Assembly: GCA_028874795.1 (NCBI GenBank) | Contig: JAPPHT010000038.1 | Coordinates: 1 to 60,203 of the forward strand | Direction: 5' to 3' | From: Chloroflexota bacterium | Lineage (GTDB): Bacteria > Chloroflexota > Dehalococcoidia > Lucifugimonadales > Australimonadaceae | DNA: 60,203 nt | In this document: piece by piece, positions 6,377-29,945 of the stretch | Layout: the number at the start of each line of letters is the position of its first letter | Numbering within the stretch: the first letter of the stretch is position 1 | Position numbers and translations under genes: made by a program | Notes under the pieces: generated by a model | Told to the model about the DNA's origin: nothing | Databases searched by the model: none | Seen by the model: only the letters and a program-made list of their open reading frames with translations

Positions 6377-6474
6377 TGGCGGGAGTGCGAGGGAGTCGAA
6401 CCCTCCCCGAACCAGGAAGCTGGCCCGGCAACGGTTTTGAAGACCGCGAGACCCACCGGGACCCATCCACTCCC
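6377..6474 (-). tRNA. selC: tRNA-Sec (anticodon TCA)
   Basis: A 98-nt tRNA on the minus strand. Visible parts: acceptor GGGAGTG pairing with CACTCCC (an eighth pair is a G-G mismatch), a six-pair D stem with G-T wobbles closed by CGGT, the anticodon loop CTTCAAA containing TCA, a nine-pair variable arm (CCGGGCCAG with CTGGTTCGG), T stem-loop GAGGG-TTCGACT-CCCTC, and an encoded GCCA end. The long acceptor/D/variable arms and the UCA anticodon identify selenocysteine tRNA. It decodes UGA with SelB after SelA-dependent conversion of the charged serine; selA, selB and selD are not in the window. A likely client is the TGA-containing peroxiredoxin gene at 28576. Confidence 0.93.
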
Positions 6475-28540: not shown

Positions 28541-28575
28541 ACCCGCCACACTCCACACTCCCAGGAGGGCCCCGT

Positions 28576-29037
28576 ATGGTGGACGTAGGTCAGCAAGCCC
28601 CGGACTTCACCCTCAAAGACCAGAACGGAGAAGACGTCTCCCTCGCCGGCTTCAAGGGCGACAAGTGGGTTGTCATCCACTCCTTCCCTGCCGCATTCAC
28701 CGGCGGCTGAACGACGCAGACGGTAACCTTCAACCGTGCGTTGAAGTCGTTCGAAGAGAAGGGCGCGCACGTCCTCGGACTTGGCGCCGACGCCCGCCCC
28801 GCCCTCAGGTCGTGGGGGACCAACCTCGGCGGGATCGCCCATTCGCTCCTGTCGGACTTCTGGCCCCACGGCGAGGTCGCCCGGGCCTACGGCATCTTCA
28901 ACGAGGACTCCGGCATGTGTGCCAGGTCCGTCACCATCATCGACCCGCAGGGCGCCGTCCGCTACCACCAGGCCTACCAGGGCGTCCTGCCGGACCCCAA
29001 CGCCATCCTCGAAGAGCTGGCCAGGCTCCAGGGATAA
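28576..29037 (+). CDS. Selenocysteine-containing peroxiredoxin (in-frame TGA = Sec45)
   Basis: A 153-residue thioredoxin-fold peroxidase of the AhpE/Bcp (AhpC-TSA) type, readable end to end only if the TGA at 28708-28710 is decoded as selenocysteine. AGGAGG lies 7 nt before the ATG. Order: APDFTLKDQNGEDVSLAGF, VVIHSFPAAFTGG, then TGA, then TTQTVTFNRALKSF without a frame change. The active-site pattern P-x-x-x-T-x-x-C becomes Pro38, Thr42, Sec45, so the TGA replaces exactly the peroxidatic Cys. The conserved Arg117 (CARSVTIIDPQG) and a Cys115 are present. It should reduce peroxides with thioredoxin-like donors. A hairpin-forming stretch follows the TGA, a strong terminator follows the gene, and tRNA-Sec is at 6377. 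Confidence 0.88.
28709..28752 (+). promoter_or_regulatory. Candidate bacterial SECIS hairpin
   Basis: Starting within the TGA, GAACG pairs with CGTTC, ACGC with GCGT, and ACGGT (28720-28724) with ACCGT (28733-28737), leaving an 8-nt apical loop. An alternative hairpin CTTCAA (28728-28733) with TTGAAG (28741-28746) puts a 7-nt loop 24-30 nt after the TGA. Neither loop has the G near its 5' side usually expected, so which fold SelB would bind is uncertain. Confidence 0.6.
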
Positions 29038-29060: not shown

Positions 29061-29088
29061 GAAGGGGCTGCGGCGGCGCAGCCCCTTC
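29061..29088 (+). terminator. Strong terminator hairpin after selenoperoxidase gene
   Basis: GAAGGGGCTGC and GCAGCCCCTTC form an 11-bp perfect stem with a GGCGGC loop, followed by TCGTT. It begins 24 nt after the TAA at 29035 and supports that TAA, not the internal TGA, as the true end of the gene. Confidence 0.7.
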
Positions 29089-29111: not shown

Positions 29112-29945
29112 ATGACTGCGAACCCCAGCGAAGCAGACCTCAAGCGCGCCCCGTTCGCCCAGGGCGACGTTGCCCTGGTCTACGACCAGCGCAAGCGGCG
29201 CTACCGCGTCGAGCTCAGGAGCGGCGCGCTCGTCGAGACCCATCTCGGGTACGTCACCCACGACGAGATCATCGGGCGGCGCGAGGGCTTCTTCCTCGTC
29301 ACCAACAAAGGTCATCGCCTCTTCATCCTCCGCCCGCCGTTCGCCGACGCCGTCAAGGAGCTGCCGCGCCAGAGCCAGGTCATCTACCCAAAGGACCTCG
29401 CCGCCCTCCTGATGCACGCCGACGTCTACCCCGGCGCGCGCGTCATCGAGGTCGGACTCGGCTCGGGCGCTGCATCAGCGGCCCTCCTCCGCGCCGTCGG
29501 GCCGGACGGCTCGGTCGTCTCCCACGAGGTCCGCGACGAGGTCGTCGAGGCTGCGCAGCGGAACGTCGCCCACTTGGCGCCCGGCGCGACGAACCACCGC
29601 ATCGTCCTCGGCGACGCATACGCCGGCGGCCTCGGCACTGACGAAGCTGACCACGTCATCGCCGACGTGCCGGAGCCTTGGCTGCTGCTCGATGCCGCCG
29701 CCGGAGTCCTGCGCACGGGCGGAGTCTTCGCCAGCTACCTCCCGACCGTCCTGCAAGTGCACGAGCTGATGATGCGCCTTACCCGCGACGATCGCTGGCA
29801 CATGGCCGAGGCGTTCGAGCTGCTGGAGCGTCCGTGGCACTTCTCTGAGACGAGCGCGCGGCCCGACCACCGCATGGTCGGCCACACCGGGTTCATCACC
29901 ACCGCACGCCGCAGCGAACCGCTCCCACGCCCCTTGTCATGCTGA
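29112..29945 (+). CDS. trmI: tRNA (adenine-N1)-methyltransferase (TrmI family)
   Basis: A 277-aa SAM-dependent methyltransferase, expected to make m1A58 in the T loop of tRNAs. The N-terminal beta-rich domain (FAQGDVALVYD, THLGYVTHDEIIGRREG, LRPPFADAVKELPRQSQVIYPKD) and the SAM-binding motif VIEVGLGSGAASAALLRAVGPDG are characteristic, with DAYAGGL and HVIADVPEPW further on. The start at 29112 begins the family domain; the frame is open much further upstream through the peroxiredoxin region without homology. The last few codons and the stop lie inside dispersed repeat A, so the native C-terminus may have been replaced. Confidence 0.9.
   Translation: MTANPSEADLKRAPFAQGDVALVYDQRKRRYRVELRSGALVETHLGYVTHDEIIGRREGFFLVTNKGHRLFILRPPFADAVKELPRQSQVIYPKDLAALLMHADVYPGARVIEVGLGSGAASAALLRAVGPDGSVVSHEVRDEVVEAAQRNVAHLAPGATNHRIVLGDAYAGGLGTDEADHVIADVPEPWLLLDAAAGVLRTGGVFASYLPTVLQVHELMMRLTRDDRWHMAEAFELLERPWHFSETSARPDHRMVGHTGFITTARRSEPLPRPLSC

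Follow-up and report, generated by a model that had tools for sequence, protein, structure and literature searches.

The locus raises the question of whether a TGA codon within a peroxiredoxin gene ends translation or specifies selenocysteine (Sec). The gene lies on the forward strand at positions 28576–29037 of the window (the whole stretch of 60,203 nucleotides that was analysed), and its family match, homologues and structural model mark it as a candidate selenoprotein of 153 residues. Our main reading, to which we assign a probability of roughly 0.96, is that the product is an AhpE-type one-Sec peroxiredoxin, Sec being inserted at the UGA by way of a SECIS element and SelB.

Reading frame, fold and active site

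The frame begins at an ATG (28576), which is preceded by a Shine-Dalgarno-like AGGAGG 7 nt upstream (28563–28568, forward strand), and ends at a TAA (29035–29037). It contains a single internal TGA (28708–28710, forward strand), and the frame is unchanged throughout. These features had been described in an earlier note on this DNA, and all of them were found again in the sequence. Codon-by-codon reading of the homologues places Pro38, Thr42, codon 45 and Arg117 in the frame. The TGA is codon 45, the proposed Sec codon, and coincides with the peroxidatic cysteine of the P-x-x-x-T-x-x-C motif, just as had been claimed. The Pfam family AhpC-TSA (PF00578) spans the TGA, with residues 4–130 matching positions 1–123 of the 124 in the profile (E = 5e-33), and the open part C-terminal of the TGA is recognized by the same family on its own (E = 1e-12). 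The peroxiredoxin similarity reported on either side of the codon is therefore genuine.

Comparison with three close relatives gave dN/dS values of 0.03–0.13 before the TGA and 0.19–0.35 after it. Judged against these relatives, both sides of the codon are under purifying selection. An upstream value of 0.88, obtained for one relative (L029), was discarded as an alignment artefact arising from a one-codon gap.

The AlphaFold model of the 153-residue product (mean pLDDT 96.7) matches peroxiredoxins. The closest solved structure is AhpE from Mycobacterium tuberculosis (Rv2238c; PDB code 1xxu), whether searched by sequence (E = 4e-30), by profile (E = 1e-55) or by fold, which is shared over the full length with a TM score of 0.95 and 39% identity. 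Both proteins have Thr42 and the catalytic residue at position 45 in the same places and lack a conserved resolving cysteine, as expected of the AhpE subfamily; they differ in that AhpE carries Cys at position 45, where the gene described here has TGA (Sec). Thr42 is strictly conserved in the Sec relatives (129/129), as is Arg117, located downstream of the TGA as the earlier note had it (128/128 of those that cover the site). The sole other cysteine, C115, was rejected as a resolving residue of the family, being confined to the genus and present as Cys in just 5 of 129 Sec relatives. Pro38 is kept in this protein and in only 38 of the 129 Sec relatives. The remaining 91 do not have the motif proline, and at this alignment position most Sec relatives have Val or Ile, often within FHVFDFTGG-U.

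Codon 45 in relatives and the selenocysteine machinery

Of 250 genomes searched within the same order, 210 contained a match. With 100 further loci retrieved, codon 45 was read in a total of 134 copies; 132 of these belong to the order, and the other two, L057 and L058, to records titled Gammaproteobacteria. The codon is TGA in 129 copies, TGC in three and TGT in two, and no other codon occurs. Cysteine homologues at position 45, which the earlier note had proposed to look for, thus exist. Chance is excluded, since TGA occupies precisely this position in 129 of the 134 copies and the remaining five have Cys codons there. Neither a TGA elsewhere nor a downstream frameshift, named beforehand as contrary outcomes, was seen in the close homologues; their TGA is likewise codon 45, and they continue in frame to the C-terminus. 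Over 140 related bacterial genomes contain the TGA form, which, outside the order, is also found in other families belonging to the class, alongside stop-free forms. Among named records the nearest (89–92% identity) bear the titles Dehalococcoidia bacterium, SAR202 cluster bacterium bin16 and Chloroflexi bacterium; of these, bin16 is a bin assigned to SAR202 and derives from the sponge Aplysina aerophoba (PMC5649159).

These data bear on the simplest alternative, in which the TGA arose by nonsense mutation or sequencing error and the gene is a pseudogene of a Cys peroxiredoxin. TGA is one base away from TGC and TGT, the codons used by the five Cys copies of the order, so that a single change would suffice. 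Such an accident is nevertheless refuted, since over 140 genomes conserve the TGA and keep the frame after it intact, and the identical codon is present in 129 copies that differ widely (about 36 to 92% identity). The purifying selection downstream of the TGA and the Sec machinery of the genome point the same way, and we give this explanation virtually no chance. Since more than 140 related genomes show this design, the TGA peroxiredoxin is a real and probably old selenoprotein.

The machinery for Sec insertion is present. A tRNA-Sec gene (selC) with anticodon TCA was detected in the same window on the reverse strand (6377–6474) by ARAGORN and by Rfam RF01852 (69.9 bits), and the genome contains selA (508 bits), selB (341 bits) and selD (389 bits). 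The absence of the last three genes, which according to the earlier note would have spoken against a selenoprotein, was thus not encountered. The selD gene (L016, G000:C89:24806-25726) is itself a candidate selenoprotein, with a TGA in the context LATCAG-U-AGK. Within the order, 200 of 247 genomes have a detected selA, as do 89 of the 95 that are near-complete. selA accompanies the TGA gene in 126 of 144 genomes, and the remaining 18 are assemblies of 56–90% completeness. SelA and SelB have been reported together in most sponge-symbiont bins and as absent from most related references (PMC5649159).

A second alternative holds that the TGA is decoded as another amino acid, either Trp or, through a near-cognate or recoded tRNA, Cys. 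Homology alone would be satisfied equally well by Cys at this codon. Against this stand the tRNA-Sec with its TCA anticodon and the selA, selB and selD genes of the genome, the fact that TGA also terminates other genes of the window in the normal way, for example the GrpE gene (50774), and a structured element past the TGA (described below) that is expected only with SelB-dependent insertion. Decoding as Trp or Cys is accordingly highly improbable. A non-standard genetic code in which TGA generally encodes an amino acid was likewise rejected, as TGA ends ordinary genes in the window, namely grpE and gcvH (24595), the latter stop being judged by its position ahead of the next gene. The same two codons were the clearest rivals to 28708 in a coding-bias scan for a second read-through gene, and both proved to be ordinary stops between adjacent genes.

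Two further candidate Sec peroxiredoxins were observed elsewhere in the genome. One (L023, G000:C79:113178-113573) is Bcp/PrxQ-like, contains GTRG-U-TWEAAEFRD and matches AhpC-TSA with an E value of 1e-31; the other (L025, G000:C50:1765-2199) is AhpC/TSA-like, contains FYRGHF-U-GVC (UxxC) and probably has an N-terminal membrane anchor.

A structured RNA element after the TGA

The proposed upper SECIS hairpin, CUUCAAC-CGUGC-GUUGAAG, is located at 28728–28746 on the forward strand, within the coding region, and is suggested by codon invariance in the home family, by SECIS geometry and by folding. The published bacterial SECIS rule (PMC13188914) calls for an upper stem of 4–16 bp, an apical loop of 3–9 nt with a G in the first two loop positions, and a distance of 16–37 nt from the UGA. 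Applied by script, this rule is satisfied by the hairpin, which has a spacing of 24 nt from the UGA, a 7-bp stem and the 5-nt loop CGUGC; the G in second position followed by U also agrees with the published model (bSECIS; PMC13188914, Fig. 2). A lower stem, UGAACGA/UCGUUCG (28708–28714 with 28747–28753), would extend the element to 28708–28753 (forward strand) according to the RNAalifold consensus of 10 sequences, and differs between species.

In nine sequences, seven from the home family and two from Gammaproteobacteria, codons for invariant amino acids are also invariant as codons in five of five cases inside the hairpin, compared with two of 21 outside it (hypergeometric p = 3e-4). The five encode Phe, Asn, Arg, Ala and Leu, the Leu codon being TTG. 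We further scanned 126 genes by folding 45-nt windows and comparing them with within-gene permutations of synonymous codons that keep protein and composition. Structure peaks in the window that starts 6 nt past the TGA (+6 to +51), with a mean z of −2.07 and a z under −2 in 54% of genes. Elsewhere the values are mostly close to 0, apart from weaker signals at −60 and from +30 to +48.

The element departs from the bacterial model in having a competing fold and in changing shape between the families of the order. Folded alone, the upper hairpin has an energy of −6.0 kcal/mol (z −3.9), the limit of minimum free energy for a bacterial SECIS element being −7.5 kcal/mol. The region from the UGA reaches −16.9 kcal/mol in a minimum-energy fold with a competing upper stem, and the sequence of the window itself permits a competing structure (−13.6 kcal/mol across 45 nt) that is more stable than the conserved hairpin. 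A different hairpin, with the loop GGUC, occupies almost the same position in a sister group (L030–L032). RNAalifold gave no consensus structure on mixed order-wide sets, and the idea of one consensus SECIS shared by the entire order was dropped; for this reason the home family and the remaining sequences were analysed separately against synonymous permutations. In the other 111 sequences a longer stem emerged, with pairs 12–48, 14–18/42–46 and 21–25/35–39 (numbered from the base after the TGA). These pairs form in 66% of cells, compared with 48% (sd 1.2%) in the permutations and 33–50% when slid, a test somewhat favourable to the stem, which was chosen from the same 111 sequences. Order-wide, a hairpin obeying the simple SECIS rule is found in only 90 of 129 genes versus 52% in controls.

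A SECIS-like element is thus supported by synonymous-site constraint and pairing statistics, which indicate that RNA structure is selected beyond the protein code. Together with the same-codon TGA and the Cys homologues among relatives, selA, selB, selD and tRNA-Sec, this element favours the verdict of a likely selenoprotein at which the earlier note had arrived.

UGA readthrough in bacteria competes with termination. The TGA might on that account be a bifunctional regulatory codon, the main product at low selenium being the 44-residue peptide or a TTG-started fragment (28741–29037), and Sec readthrough a minor event. An open reading frame for the C-terminal fragment, starting with TTG, is indeed present. 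The fragment, however, would be without the active site, the sequence gives no sign of a separate start, and the TTG belongs to the conserved hairpin, which makes this arrangement improbable as the principal outcome.

In the preferred reading, that of Sec insertion, the machinery, the codon, the element, the fold and the conserved active-site residues, which are evident at the sequence level, would act together as follows. The ribosome would reach the UGA at codon 45, where the hairpin immediately 3' would recruit SelB carrying Sec-tRNA-Sec, and selenocysteine would be put in in place of termination. The selenolate of Sec, activated by Thr42 and Arg117, would by analogy with the family attack H2O2 or organic and fatty-acid hydroperoxides to yield a selenenic acid. 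Because there is no conserved second Cys, we infer a one-Sec chemistry in which an external thiol or a redoxin is the probable reductant of the oxidised Sec. With such peroxidase activity, the enzyme would be a fast peroxide scavenger.

Known relatives and evolutionary spread

Sec peroxiredoxins with a TxxU motif are an established family of bacterial selenoproteins and are frequent in marine metagenomes, with 43 in the Sargasso Sea and 253 in GOS (PMC1088965, PMC2398784, PMC1794560, PMC13188914). The replacement of the peroxidatic Cys by Sec, which the earlier note had named as a recurrent pattern, is already on record. The gene described here belongs to this known kind. It shares with the family (PF00578) the AhpC/TSA fold and Sec at the peroxidatic position within T-x-x-U, with Cys homologues in the same column and a host that has selA, selB, selD and tRNA-Sec. 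It differs in belonging to the AhpE subfamily, and its score with the NCBIfam model PrxU (NF040737), 62.3 bits, is below the curated cut-off of 270. Classified by sequence, it is a TxxU peroxiredoxin of AhpE type and, by NCBIfam, no PrxU equivalog. The parts of the published TxxU accounts that were available state neither a lineage-wide fixation nor an AhpE assignment. In a limited collection of the literature, no paper joining SAR202 and selenoproteins was found, and the titles and abstracts described no AhpE selenoprotein.

In a tree of 97 proteins, the distribution of Sec and Cys requires three changes. Because the two Cys copies of one family, f34 (L231 and L232; TGT), are nested in a supported Sec clade, Sec was probably replaced by Cys in this family while selA, present in four of its genomes, was kept. 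The two copies from Gammaproteobacteria MAGs (L057 and L058) fall within the home-family clade with a support of 100/99. Their SECIS hairpins are identical to that of the home family, except for the last pair in L058, and selA is present in both genomes. The natural reading of these sequences would be a movement of the gene, together with its SECIS, between phyla and into Gammaproteobacteria; alternatively, the two contigs may be misbinned and not of gammaproteobacterial origin. A wider scenario is put forward tentatively, and we think it possible rather than probable: an AhpE-type selenoperoxiredoxin would have been fixed early in a large SAR202-like/Dehalococcoidia clade and moved with its SECIS into Gammaproteobacteria, and Sec would have let most lineages lose a near-universal active-site proline, giving rise to a functionally distinct class of peroxidases.

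Downstream of the gene, a TrmI-like tRNA m1A58 methyltransferase (29112–29945, forward strand), recognized by its domain match and neighbour conservation and given as context, is conserved next to the gene in over 20 loci of the order; it was looked for next to the two Gammaproteobacteria copies and was not found there. Between the two genes, 23 nt past the TAA, lies a perfect inverted repeat of 12 bp (29061–29088, forward strand; arms 29061–29072 and 29077–29088, loop of 4). The earlier note had reported an 11-bp terminator hairpin at this place. The hairpin exists and is one pair longer, whereas its designation as a terminator is not supported, as a search returned no terminator-like site, the T-run being missing; the repeat may be a processing or attenuation element.

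An annotation that reads the TGA as a stop would remove the half of the enzyme carrying the active site in over 100 genomes, and would hide both a conserved antioxidant enzyme and the selenium requirement of a large, mostly uncultured group. The points of interest are the near-fixation across the order, the apparent transfer to Gammaproteobacteria with the hairpin, the reversion from Sec to Cys in one family and the loss of the motif proline. The set offers Sec, Cys and SECIS variants as a natural series in which to ask why Sec is retained, and includes a Cys-reverted family with at least four genomes that still have selA and an apparent cross-phylum transfer with the hairpin intact. One genome (G065, locus L143) has two copies of an AhpE-like peroxiredoxin, one with Sec and one with Cys, approximately 850 bases apart on opposite strands.
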